DNA of 64,000 bases, from assembly GCA_034670405.1 (NCBI GenBank), contig JAXDDX010000056.1:1426501-1490500 (forward strand). The letters run 5' to 3'. Made by a program: the position numbers and the translations under genes. Source of the stretch: Hoplostethus atlanticus (lineage: Eukaryota; Chordata; Actinopteri; Trachichthyiformes; Trachichthyidae). Shown piece after piece: positions 24,360 to 55,318 of this stretch. Position 1 is the stretch's first letter. Every line of letters starts with the position of its first letter. Under the pieces are notes generated by a model, which did not search any database, was not told the origin of the DNA, and saw only the letters and a program-made list of their open reading frames with translations.

Positions 24360-25155
24360 GCTTTTCACACTTGAATATGTTAGCCCAGGGTTAACTTTAA
24401 CCCTGGGTTATAATAGCCCTGGGTTAACTTATCTCACCTTTCACACTAGTTTTCTTTAACCCTGGGCTAACAATTGACCCCGGGTATTCAGTGTTCAGGA
24501 TTTCACACTGTAAGCTTGTAGACCCCGGGTTAACGTTTAATGGTAATGTTTAACTCGCTGTTACATTCTAACCCCTGTTACATTCTAACCCGTTACATTC
24601 TAACCTCTGTTACATTCTAACCCCTGTTACATTCTAACCCCTGTTACATTCTAACCTCTGTTACATTCTAACCTCTGTTACATTCTAACCTCTGTTACAT
24701 TCTAACCCCTGTTACATTCTAACCTCTGTTACATTCTAACCCCTGTTACATTCTAACCCTGTTACATTCTAACCCCTGTTACATTCTAACCTCTGTTACA
24801 TTCTAACCCCTGTTACATTCTAACCCTGTTACATTCTAACCCCTGTTACATTCTAACCCTGTTACATTCTAACCCCTGTTACATTCTAACCCCTGTTACA
24901 TTCTAACCCCTGTTACATTCTAACCCACAACGTTTCACACTATTGTTCTTAGCACCGCGTTTCGGGGATAGCACCACAAAAGCAGTGCTAACTCTGCTTC
25001 GTAGCAGGGTTTGTTAACCCAGGGTTAAAAGTGTTAAGTGTTAACCCCCTTTCAAAAATGCAAGTGTGAAACGCTGCTTAGCCCAGGGTTAAATGCGTCC
25101 TTAACCCAGGGTTAAGAAAGACGTTAGCCCGGGGTTAAGTGTAGTGTGAAAAGCA
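24360..25155. mobile_element. Palindrome-rich terminal-inverted-repeat element with internal minisatellite
   Basis: The two ends are inverted copies of GCTTTTCACACT, with TA just outside on each side. Many copies of the near-palindrome TTAACCCAGGGTTAA, or its CCCGGG variant, lie along both arms, together with the phrase TTTCACACT in both orientations. The centre is occupied by a 17-bp tandem repeat (24561-24926). No ORF is present. The TA dinucleotide is compatible with a TA-duplicating DNA transposon, but the superfamily is not established. Confidence 0.65.
24561..24926. repeat. 17-bp minisatellite, 22 copies
   Basis: Twenty-two head-to-tail copies of TTACATTCTAACCCCTG, with C/T variation in the CCCC part (CCTC) and several 15-16 bp variants lacking one or two bases. 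The variants are interspersed, which suggests repeated local duplication. It lies inside a transposon-like element and is not a CRISPR array, because there are no spacers. Confidence 0.95.
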
Positions 25156-34026: not shown

Positions 34027-37000
34027 GTAAGAGCAGACTAATGATGGGATATTCATGTTTTTCCTGCATCACAACTAAAAATAGGTAGACAATTGTGCCC
34101 TGGGATCCTTAAGTTTTTGCGAGGTTTTGCTGTTTCTGCGGTGCTGATGTGGAATTGGCGAGTTTGGGATGTGGGGGATTTTGGAGAGCTGCTTTGACTG
34201 CTTTGAGCGATTAGTTTACAGGCTTTCATCCGCAGTTTAAGCCCCGAGGAACAGGCGATTCGAAGCAAAATCATACTTCAGTAAATAATGTGGACTTATT
34301 AAAGACGAATTTGTGATAAATATATCTGAGGTGAACGAGTGGGAAGCGTGGAGAGTTAAAGTTTCAGCTCATTGAATTGCGTCTCTCAGGTAGAACGGGT
34401 CCTTTCCGAAAACAATCAAGTAAAAAACGACAAAAACGGGCAAAGATTTACCCTCGGTTTCTTGCAAATACCTCCGACTTCTGCTCAAATTTCGGTTTAT
34501 ATATTTAAAACAACGGTTAGTGACCCGTTGAGCAACAGTCATTCTGCCACCGTGCGAGAAATAGAGGGAACACTGGGACGCTTGAAATACCCAGAGCCCG
34601 CTGTTTCAGTCATCGGTTCAGGAGTCCGGGTCGGATATAGTGTGGGTTTTAAACATTTTACATTCATACAATTATTCAAAATAACCCAACAACTGATCAA
34701 AATCACTGTTGTGCTGCAACCGAGCACAAGTTGGGTTATTTCGTCCATTTTGTGAGAGCATGTGTCTGCCTGGGATTGACAGATATAACGGGTTTTAGCG
34801 ATAAAGCCATAAAACCCCCATAATATCAGTATAATATTCTTATAGGGATTTATAGTGTGTCTGTGGTACTCATTAGTGAATTTATAGTGACCTCGTTGTA
34901 CTTCATTGTATTTTTAATCTCCTATAGTATAACTGTAATATTTCTAGAGGACATTAGTTATGATATTATTATTATAGGATAGTATTATTATAGTATAGTG
35001 TTGCTGTGATATTCGTAAAGTGTCTCTTATAGAAATACTATAGTTCTTTTTGGTAAGAGTAGCACCCGGAGTTTTAGAGGTGTTATCGACTGCAGAGGGG
35101 GCAATTTTATGTTTCTATTTATTCTATGCCAGAATAGACCTGATGGTTCTATGTAGTACATTTGAATGCGAATTTCCTTGATGGAGCTTGTGAAGGTCTA
35201 ATGGAGTTAGTTTGTAGACTAAACCAGGGGTTCTCAAACTTGTGCATGTCAACTACCCCCACATAGATACGCATTAGACCGCGGGGACCACATCTGAGAA
35301 GATATGTGGATGTAGTGGAGTTTTCAGCCATCCTTGTACATTTTATCATCGTGGTTATTGTCTAGTGAATGAAATAATAGTGAAATTAAACTATTAGCCA
35401 TTTTGCTGGTGAGCCCCTGGAATCTCCGCAACGACCCCTGGAGGAACCACTGGATCAGACTAACGTGTTTGGGCCCATACACACGTCAGACTAGGCTAGA
35501 GATGTTTGCTGTGATTGATGTCCACCCCAGGCTGAAGGTTGAGATAGACAGGGAGGGCAGCAGGGCATAGAGGGGTCTCGAGCAGGAGTTGGGGGCTACC
35601 TTACAAATGTGTCAATAAATCTCCAGCACTAAAACTAGATGCATCATTTATGCCCAGTCAGTGTCTATCTGGTCAGGTCTGCAGGTCCTCTCATATCCTC
35701 CGCTATTTAATAATTCAACGTGTATATATCCCGGAAAATATGTGCTTATTGTAGCATAATTACAACTCTATCAAGACTACTGCTGAGAGCCGAAGACTTC
35801 AAGGTAACGTTAGCCTATAACTGTTACCTTGCCATTTTGAATTTTAGACTGTTGTTCTTCTTAACTTGGCATTTATGGGGGAAACACATTTCTCTATGCA
35901 TACTCTAGTGAATCATAAAAACTGTTTGGTGTAGGAATCAATAGTTTACACTATTTAACTCACTTTCACCCTCAACCAGTTGGTTTCAATGAGAAATGCT
36001 AACGATGCTAACTTAAGCTATTTTTAGGTTAGCCGAACGACCTGGTTAAAAAAACTGCCAAGAAAATTCAATGTCAATAAAAAAAAAAAATTGTCTACTT
36101 TATCCGGTATTGGCATTACATACAAATAGGCCTAATGCAGGTGGACAGCGCTGACATTAGCTGGGACAAAAGGACACCTGATACCGTAGGCATACAATAT
36201 GCATACAATGTGTCTTGAATAGAAGCCATAGGTCATTTTCATAGCGGGTTGTATTTCAGGTTTCATGAGATTGAAATGAAATACATTTTAGTTATTTATC
36301 TTCACTGGGGCTTTGTTGTATTGGAGGCACAAAAAAAAAAGTTCTGCATTAGCACTTTAGTTAACTGAATGACAACTTGTTAGCTTTGTCAACATTCCTT
36401 ATCAAATCAATGGCTCACGGGACAGGACACCTGATGCCCCAGTTAGGCAATGCACACAATAAGTCATGTTAATTGAATAGAGGGCGCAGGCAATTTCATA
36501 AGAGGCTGTATCTCAGGTTTCATGTGCTGATCGGCCCTTTGCTTATTGAAAGGAAACACAAATAGGCCTACTAGCACCTTAACGGCGCGTAGCACATCCT
36601 GGATTGACATGGCTGTGTCCAGGGTTATTTTGACCCCACAGAACCTTTTAACCTCTCTTCTGTCTCACAGAGTCACCTTTAAGACAAACACAATGATCCA
36701 GCCTGGCAACGCAGCATTGTCAGAGAGACACATACAAACACACACACAAACACACGCACATACACACACAGGCGCACATACACATGCACATAGTGCATTA
36801 GCATAGATATCGGTTACTAGAACTCAATAGCTCGCCTGCTGCAGCAAGATTAACTATTCAGGGCAGGTGGTTAAAGGGCCTATTGTATTGCATGGTGCTC
36901 TGCCACCATCATGATTGGACAAAGCCTTTGTCTGGTGGGCAGCCCACTGCCAAAACAACTGCAAGGGCAAAGGGCTGGAAGAGTACACACACATATAAGG

Positions 37001-38553: not shown

Positions 38554-39250
38554 ATGAATCCCACCAGCCTACCAGGGCATGTCCTTTTGCTGCTCAGTAC
38601 CATACTGGGCCTGAGTGTAGGCCTGCAGTTTACTGGCTCTGAAGGCCAGTGGGTTCGCTACCTGCGCTGGGATGCCAGCACCAGGAGCGACCTGACCTTT
38701 CAGTTCAAGACATCAGAATCTGACGGCCTGATCCTGTACTTCGATGATGGCGGATATTGCGACTTTCTGCTTCTCACAGTAACGGAGGGTAAGCTGCAGC
38801 TACGCTTCAGCATCGACTGCGCTGAAACCACCGTCGCCTCTGAGAAGATGGTCAATGACAGCCGCTGGCACTTTGCCACGATCAGCAGGCACAATTTGCG
38901 GACGGTCTTGGCCCTGGATGGCCAGACCAAGGCGGACGAGGTGCGGCCTCAGCGACAGTTCATGAAAATCGTCAGCGACCTATTCCTCGGAGGACTCCCG
39001 GGGGACATCCGCGCATCTGCCATCACCCTGCCGTCCGTCCGTGAGCTACCACCGTTCAAGGGAATTATCACTGATATGAGTTACGGGAGTAAGCTGCCCA
39101 CGCTCATTGATAGTCAGAAAGTACGTTTGGAGATGATAGGCCTTTGCACAGAGAACCCTTGTGAGAATGGAGGGAGCTGCTCGCTGGCGGATGGAGAGCC
39201 CTACTGTGACTGCTCCAGAACTGGATATGTAGGTCGATACTGCACTGAAG
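38554..39250 (+). CDS. nrxn3: Neurexin-3-alpha, first coding exon (signal peptide, LNS1, EGF-A)
   Basis: Presynaptic cell-adhesion receptor; alpha-neurexins bind postsynaptic partners and support calcium-channel function. This exon encodes residues 1-232 plus one base. Residues 1-23 form a hydrophobic signal peptide, with mature protein starting near LQF. The first LNS/laminin-G domain spans about 24-195, with Cys69 and Cys89 and an N-glycosylation sequon NDS at 101-103. EGF-like repeat A follows with six cysteines at 198, 203, 209, 218, 220 and 230. Motifs such as [20 protein letters not shown] and SDLFLGG match neurexin-3 better than neurexin-1 or -2 as I recall them. The ATG has an ACC upstream context and is followed directly by the signal peptide. 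The exon ends in the donor GAAG|GTAAGAG (39250/39251) in phase 1. The ORF continues to 39387 only by intron read-through. Paralogue a or b cannot be decided. Confidence 0.95.
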
Positions 39251-43350: not shown

Positions 43351-44799
43351 TATGGGTCCAAAATCCCCTGGCGCTGGAGAGTTAGAGCAGCGCTACTGTC
43401 CATCAGTTGGCCGCTATCTCCCTTCCCCCCACCTCCATCCTCCGTCCTTCCCTTTCCTTAGCCAATGTCATCCTCTGCATGTGGGAGGAGAAGTAGCAGC
43501 CATTTTGTTCTCCCTAAAGGAGGTGGGAGAAAATCTAGCCTAGCCTCACCATTCCCCTCTATTTGTCTTCATTCTCCTCCCCCCTCCTCTCGAAAGGATA
43601 TTTCGGGCCTCTGTCGAGCTTGTTACATTTAACACGAGTGCTGCACGCTTGTGATAGAATGGCAGAGGGCCACGTTGAGAGGCTCTACGCACAACACGAG
43701 GACCTTAAGCTATCGGGGTGAAAAACAAGGCGTGAAAATCCCCTGTTCATATTTTCAGTGGTGGGAAACAGAGGCCTCCACGCAGCCTGGCCAGAGATCA
43801 AGGCGCAGCACTATTTAATTGCTCTGAGTCAAATTAATATCAGATATCGCACATTAGAACTGGCACTTAAAACGTCTAATGTAGTCTTCCTTAATTAAGA
43901 TTTCTTCAATTTACTCTTGTCAGTACTTGTTGCTCTCGTGGGGCTCTGATTACAGAAATCCCTTTACATTCATGCACCGGGGCTGATACTAAGCTAAAGA
44001 GATGCTGTAGGCACCTCCAGCCGTGAGAAGATACCGGAAAATGCTGCCTAGCTTAACATATAGCCACTGATATGACCAAGACTCATTTCACTGACTGATG
44101 TTTGACGTGCCTTAAATCAAATTGGCATGTTTGATACCGATAAGGGGGGTGTCCGCGGGTGAGACCCTGGTGAGGATATTAGCCTCAAAAGATGAAGGTT
44201 AGCATGTGGTTTATTTTTTTGCAAAACCATGCTGTGAACTACTGGGAGTCCAACAGTGAGCAGTCCTCTAAGCCATCAAGAAACCAGAGGGGGTGCATGG
44301 ATTTGGGTCAGCATTGAAGCAAACTCTGGTAGGGGGTGAAGGGGCGCAAGGGGTGGAGGAGAGAGATATGGGTCTGAGGAGTGTCCAAAGATCCACAAAC
44401 CTCACAACACCATAAATCCTCAGAAGTGTGGATTTATGTCTCTTTTTTTAATGTATGTGAGGCGCTCTGTGAGATACAAGATGCAGAATATTATGTCCGT
44501 GTAACAATATTCGAAATGTGAAAGAGTTGTTTGACAAATGATGATGACAATATGAATCTGGTTCCCTGAAAGGATGGGACAGATTATTTTTGCTGTGTTT
44601 CTCTCCACAGGATTTATATTGAAATTGTTATTTTGAACAGGCATGTCAAGGGGCGACTCTTAGCTCCTTACATGACAATGAAATGCTTAGCGGTGTGGTA
44701 CTTTTTTGCATGATAGATCCACATGCAAAGGAAGCTGTAGTGTGTTCCTAATGCAAGACATCTCTTTGCCTTCTTTCCCTTCCTCTGCAAACTCCACAG

Positions 44800-44817
44800 C
44801 AGTCCAGAGAAAACCAG
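44800..44817 (+). CDS. nrxn3: nrxn3 exon 3, SS1 microexon (18 or 15 nt)
   Basis: A strong pyrimidine tract (TTGCCTTCTTTCCCTTCCTC) leads into ACTCCACAG|CAG, and the donor CCAG|GTGAGT at 44817/44818 is close to ideal. With the single G left over from exon 2, the 18-nt exon reads AVQRKP and leaves G for the next exon. The human NRXN3 SS1 segment at this place, as I recall it, is DVSQDP, so length, phase and the V and P residues agree. The tandem CAGCAG acceptor allows a 15-nt form (44803-44817) without the Ala. A TGC lies just upstream of the acceptor, a feature seen in neuronal SRRM4-dependent microexons; that regulation is only inferred. Confidence 0.78.
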
Positions 44818-45144
44818 GTGAGTCTCCATAGGCCAGAGAATGATTCACATGGCAGAAGAGCAAGTCATAGTTAGATGATAGATCATAGTAGCACAATTAT
44901 ATCACAACTATATCATTTAATCATTAAACAACATGCAGAGCTAGTGTGTATTTACTGTATTACTGTATATTATTCATCTATTCTCAACAGAAAGCTTTCA
45001 TGTGCACTGGAGAAAGCTTTGTCTTTAGTGTGATAGTCATGGTTTGCCATCACGCAAAGCATGCATAATGACAATACATCTGAAGTATTGGTGTGCGGTT
45101 GCTCAGATTTTCTCTCTGTCTGTCCACCCAATATTGTCTTTAAG
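44818..45144 (+). other. nrxn3: nrxn3 intron 3
   Basis: A short 327-bp intron from GTGAGT to the acceptor TATTGTCTTTAAG. The 3' part has a good pyrimidine tract (TTTCTCTCTGTCTGTCC at about 45109). No repeat or other feature was recognised. Confidence 0.75.
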
Positions 45145-45171
45145 GCCTCGCACACCTGAAGGCGGAGCAAG
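45145..45171 (+). CDS. nrxn3: nrxn3 exon 4, SS1 microexon (27 nt)
   Basis: Phase 1-1 exon. With the G carried from the previous exon it reads GLAHLKAEQ and leaves a G for the next. Alpha-neurexins have GLAHLMMGDQ (NRXN1) or GLSHLMMSEQ (NRXN3) at this exact place by memory, so the GL.HL core and final EQ are conserved; the fish form is one residue shorter. Acceptor: pyrimidine tract then CTTTAAG|GCC. Donor: GCAAG|GTACTC, acceptable but not optimal, as expected for an alternatively used exon. The protein segment lies in the linker between EGF-A and LNS2. It is too short to appear as an ORF. Confidence 0.9.
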
Positions 45172-46202
45172 GTACTCTTTCTCTCCTTTTTCACTGTAGA
45201 TCTTTATATATATTTTTCATTCTGCCTGGCTTGGTTTTGTTGTCTAATTTTACGGTGTGTGCTTTCAACTACCTGTCTGTGTGCATTTGTGTGTGTTGCG
45301 GTGCTCCTACTGTTGCGGCAGGGGTGGTGATGGGTGTTTGTGTGTGTATGTGGCTATGGCGGCATGGCATGTTCCCGTCTCACCTTCCCCCCCTCTCGCT
45401 CTCATTCTCCCTCCTCCCTCACCATCATTCCACCCAGGTTTCTATGTATTACATAATTGTGTGCTGGGCTCGATTCTGCAGCTAACATGCAGTGACACAC
45501 TCCACTGCTACTGCCTGACTTCCACTGTTAGGGGGAGGGGGAGGGTGGGGCAGAATGTTGTAATTTATGAAGGAGGAATTTATGAGGAGGAAATACACAA
45601 GAAAAAAGGTAGTATGGGAGCTGGAAAGCAGAAAGAGAGGAGATTAAGGAACGAAATGAAAGAAATGAAGGCAGATGTAGAGAGGTAGAGGAGTGAGAAT
45701 TGAAATTGAGGAGGGGTCCTGTATTAGTATACAGATGCATTTAATCAAAAAGGCAAAGAGAAAAGCGAAGCAGAGAAGACATGCTAAGAATGTGAAGTGG
45801 GTGAATCAGGAACAGCTGCAGAGGGAGATGGGCAGAGTATGGTGTAGTTTAAATAGGCTTACACTACATGTGACTACATGAGCACTTAAGGGAGGTGTGT
45901 CTGTGATGGATCCTCTCCCTTGTGTGTATGTACGCACAAGCTTCTGTGTTGAATGTGTGTGTGGAGTGCGCTGTCTACGTGCTCCTTTGTGTCGCCCCAG
46001 AGGAATGCTTTCTCCGTTGCTGATCCATTTGCATGAGTGTCAACATTTTGCATGAAAGTGTCAGTTGGCAGCATACAGGCTTACTGTAGACTAACAATAG
46101 CTTATCCCCACTTTTTGCTGTCTTTCTCTCCTGTTTTCTGCGCGGGATGACACTCTTCCCTCTTTTCTCTCTACGGATCCTTTCTCCACTCCCTAACTGT
46201 AG
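45172..46202 (+). other. nrxn3: nrxn3 intron 4
   Basis: A 1031-bp intron from GTACTC to the acceptor CCCTAACTGTAG. ORFs around 45231-45740 are not supported by any domain. A purine-rich stretch lies at 45530-45720. Confidence 0.7.
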
Positions 46203-46214
46203 GTAGAAACAAAG
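46203..46214 (+). CDS. nrxn3: nrxn3 exon 5, SS1 microexon (12 nt)
   Basis: Twelve bases between a strong acceptor (TTTCTCCACTCCCTAACTGTAG ending at 46202, shown here as TCCACTCCCTAACTGTAG) and the donor CAAAG|GTACAG. In phase 1, with the G from exon 4, it reads GRNK. In mammalian neurexins the corresponding 12-nt SS1 segment is GRSK (NRXN3) or GKSK (NRXN1) as I recall. Order, length, phase and sequence all fit the position after GLAHLKAEQ. The call rests on this agreement. A 12-nt match alone could occur by chance, so confidence is below that of exon 4. Confidence 0.78.
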
Positions 46215-46490
46215 GTACAGCAATCCTTTTTTTTTCCCCCTAAGAGCTGTGTGCATGTATGTTTCTTCCACTGGTCAATTATTTATTAGGTATGTTCATC
46301 AAATGTGTATGTATGCTTGTCGGCCTGTTTGTGAGAGAGAGAGAGGAAAAAAGAGAGATTCAAGTGGCTCGGGGGACTTCAAGCTAACGAGTGCTTACAC
46401 ACATTTATTATTGCATGAAGGATGAGTGATTAAGTGGCGATACGGTGGGAATACGGTTTCTGTGCTGGACAGTGTCTATGTGTGTCTAAC

Positions 46491-46738
46491 GGGGCGGCTG
46501 TGGCTCAGTGGTAGAGCAGGCTGTCCACTGATCACAAGGTTGGTGATCCCCAGCTCCTCCTGTCCACATGTCGAAGTGTTCTTGGGCAAGACACTGAACC
46601 CCAAATTGATCCCGATGGTCAGGCCAGCACCTTGCATGGTAGCTCACTGCCATCGATGTGTGTGTGAATGGGTGAATAAGAGGCATATATTGTAAAGTGC
46701 TTTGGATAAAAGCGCTATATAAATGCAGCCATTTACCA
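46491..46738 (+). mobile_element. V-SINE type tRNA-derived SINE
   Basis: Begins GGGGCGGCTGTGGCTCAGTG with a tRNA-like A box (TGGCTCAGTGGTAGAGC) and a B-box relic (GGTTGGTGATCCC). A body follows with TTCTTGGGCAAGACACTGAA and a 3' end reading AAGTGCTTTGGATAAAAGCG, then CTATATAAATGCAG. This order and tail are those of fish V-SINEs, whose 3' end resembles a LINE end. It is in the same orientation as nrxn3, about 280 bp beyond exon 5. Target duplications were not found. Confidence 0.88.
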
Positions 46739-47109
46739 TTAATGTGATGTCCACTGTTTTCACTCAGTCATATAGAATGTGATATGAGGAGATGCACTGC
46801 GATGGACAATTCAGGGCTTTGCAAACGCTAGATAATGGTTAGAGTGTGTGTGTGTGTGTATGTGTGTGGTGCGAGGGGGTGTACATGCGTTTGTGTGTAT
46901 GTATGTGAACAATTGCATGTGTGTGCATGGTTAATTGGATGTGACACTTCTATGTCTTCGCTGAATAAGAGTTGATTGGAGAACTTGACCTGACATTTGG
47001 CTTCATCTGAATGAGGTCAAAGCGATGGCCTGTGTGCATCGCAATCATGCAGAGAATATCCTCATTATTCATTCATGGCAAGCATGCAATACACTGTGTG
47101 GTTGTGTGA

Positions 47110-54722: not shown

Positions 54723-55088
54723 AAAAAAAAAAAGAGAGAGATCAATTATTGTCAGTTGCATAGTTTTTGTCTAAGGCTGGCACATGACTGTACATTTGCG
54801 CCAGGAGAGAACCAGCAATTGGTTACCAAACTGAACCAAACAAGCAGAACCTCCAGCCCTCACCCCCCTTCAGACTGAGACATGGTACGAGCCACGTGGC
54901 AGGCGGATGCCCTTGCTCTGGATGAGCCATTATGCAGATGATATGCTAACAAAGTCATCCGATTTGGTTCTGCTGCACTCAGGGAAGATAATCAAGCACT
55001 GATCAGCTCCCAACTCCACTCTCACTCTGTGTGTCTGTGTGTGTGTTTATGCAGCCACGTGTGCAGGTTTGTGCTGGTTGGCAGAGAG

Positions 55089-55318
<230 letters not shown>

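Follow-up and report, generated by a model that had tools for sequence, protein, structure and literature searches.

SS1 exons are present in zebrafish neurexins, and we take the human NRXN3 pieces at this site to be DVSQDP, GLSHLMMSEQ and GRSK. Neurexin splicing is described at sites SS1-SS6 (PMC12665717; PMC10063607), and the human NRXN1 protein is reported to run ..DNNVE-GLAHLMMGDQ-GKSK-GKEEYIATF.. between EGF-A and LNS2 (PMC12707391). In mouse, an inhibitory-synapse rescue is reported to have shown no difference among SS1 variants of Nrxn3 (PMC10063607). With respect to control, TGCATG is given as the Rbfox motif (PMC4317164) and RBFOX2 is reported to have promoted SS4 inclusion in an Nrxn3 minigene (PMC8486766). 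Among surveys of microexons, MicroExonator lists 402 microexon pairs common to zebrafish and mouse, with microexons of mouse Nrxn1 and Nrxn3 mentioned by name, and 16.1% of conserved microexons are stated to be missing from the zebrafish Ensembl annotation (PMC7821500). The main text of two zebrafish microexon screens contains no mention of nrxn or neurexin.

The window analysed here is a stretch of 64,000 nucleotides, bases 1426501-1490500 of contig C56 in a fish genome of 633 Mb, and positions given without a contig are window positions. A genome search with the LNS1 exon returned eight matches, namely six neurexin genes (on contigs C56, C237, C131, C18, C91 and C44) and two weak others; a search with the human NRXN1 LNS2 stretch returned twelve, the same six contigs on the same strand and six weak others. 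The six genes fall into three pairs. In a tree of the LNS1/EGF exons that included human NRXN1, C56 was grouped with C237 and C131 with C18, while C91 and C44 were placed with the human protein and were named nrxn1. We assume that C131 and C18 are nrxn2, by elimination and from human NRXN2, and that C56 and C237 are nrxn3, from zebrafish oligos and human NRXN3. Against C56, three short zebrafish nrxn3b oligos (PMC11488651) matched 54 of 67 bases, against C237 42 of 67 and against the other four genes 35-41 of 67, and because they fit C56 best we refer to this gene as nrxn3b. The initial annotation had called the gene a fish neurexin-3, and the oligos and the tree support that identity, specifically as nrxn3b. 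It is most improbable that the gene is instead nrxn1, nrxn2 or nrxn3a: although GLAHL is equally close to NRXN1 and to the presumed NRXN3 piece, the tree sets C56 and C237 apart from both the human NRXN1 group and C131/C18, the oligos prefer C56 to C237, and the LNS2 exon start AREENVATFRG is common to C56 and C237 (read by eye in C237).

The coding features of the locus are as follows.

38554..39250, + strand, coding part of nrxn3b exon 2 with start codon, putative signal peptide, LNS1 and EGF-A
44800..44817, + strand, SS1 microexon A (AVQRKP), 18 nt, bordered by CCACAG and GTGAGT, sequence CAGTCCAGAGAAAACCAG
44803..44817, + strand, microexon A (VQRKP) when the second acceptor in a CAGCAG tandem is used, 15 nt
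45145..45171, + strand, SS1 microexon B (GLAHLKAEQ), 27 nt, bordered by TTTAAG and GTACTC, with counterparts in the other five neurexin introns
46203..46214, + strand, SS1 microexon C (GRNK), 12 nt, bordered by CTGTAG and GTACAG, sequence GTAGAAACAAAG

These three microexons had been proposed from the sequence at first reading, and their coordinates, sizes, AG/GT borders and phase 1-1 were all exact. Exon 2 had been said to end in the same phase, and it does: its end, ..VGRYCTE + G, is in phase 1 at position 39250 with donor GTAAGA, and all six paralogous LNS1/EGF exons likewise end in phase 1 before GT. The LNS2 exon of nrxn3b lies beyond the window, at window-relative 93478 and 47 kb past microexon C, and the LNS1-LNS2 intron measures 54 kb. 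Its acceptor (tttcag before CGAGAG) is in phase 1, as are the LNS2 acceptors in 6 of 6 neurexins (determined via translation for C56 and by eye for the other five). Because phase 1 is found at both ends of each microexon, at the exon 2 donor and at the LNS2 acceptor, each microexon can be included or skipped in frame. Three states of A and two each of B and C make 12 combinations; in every one the frame stays open from exon 2 through the first 281 bases of LNS2, and the earlier figure of eight variants, or twelve with the alternative acceptor, is correct as a count of frames. That acceptor, the second of the CAGCAG tandem, is real and scores lower, 2.2 at 44803 vs 6.3 at 44800, using splice-score matrices built from assumed consensus frequencies. 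The pyrimidine tract that had been credited to each microexon was found before A and C; before B it is short and interrupted by purines, and the donor of B is weak.

We conclude that the three microexons very probably constitute the SS1 cassette of the fish alpha-neurexin gene nrxn3b. The sequence, the frames, the order and the homology with neurexins of the same genome are directly observed. An SS1 cassette is in itself a real and already known kind of optional protein insert, and the parts of this locus worth following are the weak middle exon and an inverted repeat upstream of A.

Compared with SS1 as described for human NRXN1-alpha (PMC12707391), the nrxn3b pieces occupy the same place, the linker between EGF-A and LNS2, in the same succession; the second piece is encoded by 27 rather than 30 nt, and GRNK stands where the human protein has GKSK. 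Microexon B matches the human piece at 6 of 9 residues with one gap, and C is identical to GKSK at 2 of 4 positions. No residue is common to A and DNNVE when the two are end-aligned without gaps; A is assigned by its position and length together with its phase and splice-site rank. Kinship to known SS1 inserts, previously suggested for all three peptides, is thus clear for B, moderate for C and absent for A by sequence against human NRXN1. As a whole, SS1 position, order, phase and peptide kinship hold for nrxn3b and also for paralogues in this genome. A long SS1 stretch of the human NRXN1 type (IKFGLQC..) gave only chance-level matches in the searched parts of the six introns, with a best E of 0.36.

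Three AG..GT segments might also come together by chance within a long intron. Within the window, the intron (39251-64000) already contains 958 open phase 1-1 AG..GT cassettes 6-45 nt long, and among them is a cassette at 46245-46289 (ELCACMFLPLVNYLL) with strong sites and splice rank 2, which was dropped as hydrophobic and without kinship to neurexins. Over the full intron, a cassette encoding GQSK at C56:1507127 is nearer to GKSK than GRNK is (16 vs 14), though its acceptor is very poor. By splice score, A ranks 1, C 14 and B 82 among the 958, and in the full 54-kb intron A ranks 1, C 21 and B 174 of 2047 cassettes of 6-45 nt; A also ranks 1 of 3700 cassettes at 6-120 nt, which speaks against chance. 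By similarity to human NRXN1 GLAHLMMGDQ, B is first in 39251-64000 with a score of 28 vs 11 for the next best. Since 28 was also attained in 2 of 100 Markov-shuffled sequences, and the rest of the window has cassettes with scores of 23 (at 24360) and 22 (at 34027), the similarity of B by itself is moderate. C is first of the 80 12-nt cassettes in 39251-64000 by similarity to GKSK. Whether the microexons are more than chance is settled by the paralogues.

Microexon B encodes GLAHLKAEQ in nrxn3b, GLAHMVAEQ in nrxn3a (C237), GLAHLMLNRQ in C18, GLAHLMMGDQ in C91, GLAHLMIGDQ in C44 and GLAHLTLNNQ in C131. It has splice rank 2 in each of C237, C18, C91 and C44 (of 1459, 414, 872 and 735 cassettes, respectively). 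The 180-kb intron of C131 yielded no SS1 microexon in an initial reading of 28.7 kb. Its B was later located with a degenerate pattern that matches the beginning of B and had been designed from the five other genes without the C131 copy; this B has strong sites and takes rank 1 among the 231 cassettes in the surrounding 6.3 kb that was read. The pattern occurs at 7 places in 633 Mb (a control pattern at 0). Six of them are the LNS1-LNS2 introns of the neurexins, one place per gene, and the seventh is C20:5385130-5385147.

For microexon A, the peptides are AVQRKP (nrxn3b), EVNSNIP (C237), AIQKEVE (C18), EDNYAE (C91) and EHSYTP (C44), with splice rank 1 in all but C44, where it is 4. The paralogue exons were selected as cassettes of 18-21 nt upstream of B that stood near the head of the splice ranking, and EHSYTP in C44 was chosen over a better-scoring 30-nt cassette, GGLGERRRLQ; because of this selection the ranks illustrate and do not test independently. 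A measures 18 nt in nrxn3b vs 21 nt in nrxn3a and C18, while B is 27 nt in both nrxn3b and nrxn3a. Microexon C reads GRNK in nrxn3b, AKSK in nrxn3a and GKSK in C91 (rank 39 of 872); the candidate in C44, GKLR (rank 32 of 735), is doubtful. B and C of the C91 gene are identical to the human pieces as published, GLAHLMMGDQ-GKSK (PMC12707391). C was not found in the nrxn2 intron of C18, and neither A nor C was identified in C131, where C was sought only within short stretches. The reading of the introns covered 44 of 76 kb in C237 and 29 of 79 kb in C91.

SS1 of nrxn3a, nrxn1 and nrxn2 in this genome resembles that of nrxn3b in phase and in having B. With six of the seven places of the B pattern in neurexin introns, including one that played no part in its design, and with the order of the microexons common to nrxn3b, nrxn3a and the nrxn1 gene of C91, chance has a negligible claim on the cassette as a whole, and for B it is already excluded. 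A separate similarity between C56 and C237 near 46836-46882 was a GT microsatellite and was discarded.

What sets nrxn3b apart from its five paralogues is that its B has the weakest splice sites of the six copies. The acceptor and donor score 2.9 and 3.4, vs 8.9-11.1 and 8.3-9.0 in the other five, and the donor, GTACTC, has no G at +5, where all five paralogues have one. These weak sites argue for lower use of the 27-nt exon. One reading is that B has decayed, having once belonged to the cassette and now being rarely or never spliced in, which would leave a living cassette of two microexons. The scores and the donor favour it, but B retains its reading frame and GLAH..Q, and 20 of its 27 bases are identical to nrxn3a, with 3 of the 9 codons identical, 4 changed silently and 2 replaced, as expected of a sequence under protein constraint. 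In addition, PTBP1-repressed micro-exons have been reported to have weaker splice sites (PMC4317164). We regard decay as doubtful. The coding sequence of B looks constrained at the protein level relative to nrxn3a, and we favour lower inclusion over loss, with B probably spliced in less frequently than its counterparts in the paralogues.

The introns flanking the microexons contain several copies of TGCATG, of which those around microexon C are listed here.

46030..46054, + strand, a pair of TGCATG motifs, lying 173 nt and 154 nt before microexon C
46252..46257, + strand, TGCATG, 38 nt downstream of microexon C
46412..46417, + strand, TGCATG, 198 nt downstream of microexon C

The most distal of these recurs, at +198 in nrxn3b, +200 in C91 and +194 in C44, with none there in nrxn3a. 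Around 14 SS1 microexons from five genes, up to a distance of 300 nt, TGCATG was counted 18 times vs an expectation of 4.4 based on the remaining intron sequence that was read (for C237 and C91, the background is the read part only), a figure to be taken with the facts that the motif was picked after looking, that eleven motifs were counted and that gene pairs (ohnologues) are not independent. By gene, the counts are 5 in C56, 2 in C237, 0 in C18, 4 in C91 and 7 in C44. The count of 18 was reached by 0 of 2000 circular shifts (mean 5.7), and the counts observed at 150, 500 and 1000 nt were reached by 1, 0 and 2 of 2000. Among hexamers of the same composition (180 tried), TGCATG ranks 5 by ratio, the four above it resting on 1-3 occurrences. 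In the window alone the signal is weaker, with 6 vs 1.87 expected in 44400-46700, which 4.5% of equal stretches reach. Other raised motifs were GCATG, the core of TGCATG, and CTAAC (5 vs 2.55 expected). Of the upstream signals that characterise SRRM4-type microexons, UGC and UC-rich motifs, UGC occurs 25 times vs 14.6 expected in the 60 nt upstream of the 14 microexons of the five genes, and pyrimidine motifs rise there as at any acceptor.

UGCAUG is thus enriched in the flanking introns as in those of Rbfox-regulated microexons, and regulation of this kind may apply to SS1. The neural micro-exons with flanking RBFOX motifs described in PMC4317164 are likewise symmetrical with TGCATG nearby, as in nrxn3b; in that report the motif is over-represented downstream, whereas the best conserved one of nrxn3b is upstream, inside an inverted repeat. 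A literature search, conducted mostly on titles and abstracts, returned no paper on Rbfox control of SS1, and with that scope is weak evidence of novelty.

This inverted repeat and its counterparts are located as follows.

44706..44728, + strand, inverted repeat TTGCATG-N9-CATGCAA with Rbfox-type TGCATG, for which an RNA hairpin is possible
C237:432566-432587, counterpart inverted repeat in nrxn3a
C91:586893-586913, counterpart inverted repeat in nrxn1

Relative to microexon A, the repeats lie at -94 in nrxn3b, -87 in nrxn3a and -93 in the C91 gene, with spacers of 9, 8 and 7 nt. Three of the five genes compared have the repeat upstream of A; it is absent there from C18 and C44, the latter having a TGCATG at -95 without the second arm. 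In 311.6 kb of six neurexin stretches, these three are the only TTGCATG/CATGCAA repeats, and genome-wide TTGCATG-N6-10-CATGCAA occurs at 42 places (control 5), the neurexin three included. Short pieces fold modestly better than shuffled ones, with z of -1.84 in nrxn3b, -1.67 in nrxn3a and -2.78 in C91, and 10, 12 and 2 of 200 shuffles, respectively, fold equally well; with longer flanks, another pairing is preferred in C91. The arms are invariant and hence offer no covariation to prove a hairpin. With spacers that vary in length, a hairpin in the RNA would be a better fit than a two-part DNA site of rigid spacing, and the repeat is possibly a new control element.

A more ambitious proposal, which we offer as speculative and on balance improbable, is that the repeat is an ancient RNA switch predating the nrxn1/nrxn3 split. 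The hairpin would hide or present an Rbfox site, Rbfox would repress A from upstream and promote C through the conserved site near +200, and the SS1 insert would be switched as neurons mature, with nrxn3b having additionally weakened B. When included, the SS1 microexons would add up to 19 residues to the EGF-A/LNS2 linker. Brain transcripts would be predicted to use these junctions, inclusion might be set by neuronal factors, with Rbfox acting via UGCAUG, probably together with pyrimidine-tract and SRRM4-type factors, and the choice among the microexons would alter the length and charge of the linker. The repeat is a small and testable cis-element that may help explain the choice at SS1 and, if it is also present in mammals, SS1 control becomes directly testable by minigene. 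This analysis also provides exact coordinates for microexons, which annotation can miss, and places B in all six neurexin genes of this fish.

Several other features were noted in the intron and the window. Beyond the window, C56:1497132-1497613 (window-relative 70632-71113) contains two blocks of 166 and 216 aligned columns that are 87-89% identical to C237 in the same nrxn3a intron, vs only 70% for coding exon 2; they may be either a conserved non-coding element or a repeat. At 46490-46640, the stretch GTGGCTCAGTGGTAGAGCAGGCTGTCCACTGATCACAAGGTTGG.. resembles a tRNA-derived SINE head; ARAGORN found no tRNA in the window, this stretch included, and an Rfam scan of the window was empty. At 55083-55316 there is a 234-bp AG dinucleotide array of 117.5 copies with 98% matches, which appears as long Arg-Glu frames in the list of open reading frames, and at 24558-24926 a tandem array comprises 22 copies of the 17-bp unit CTGTTACATTCTAACCC.
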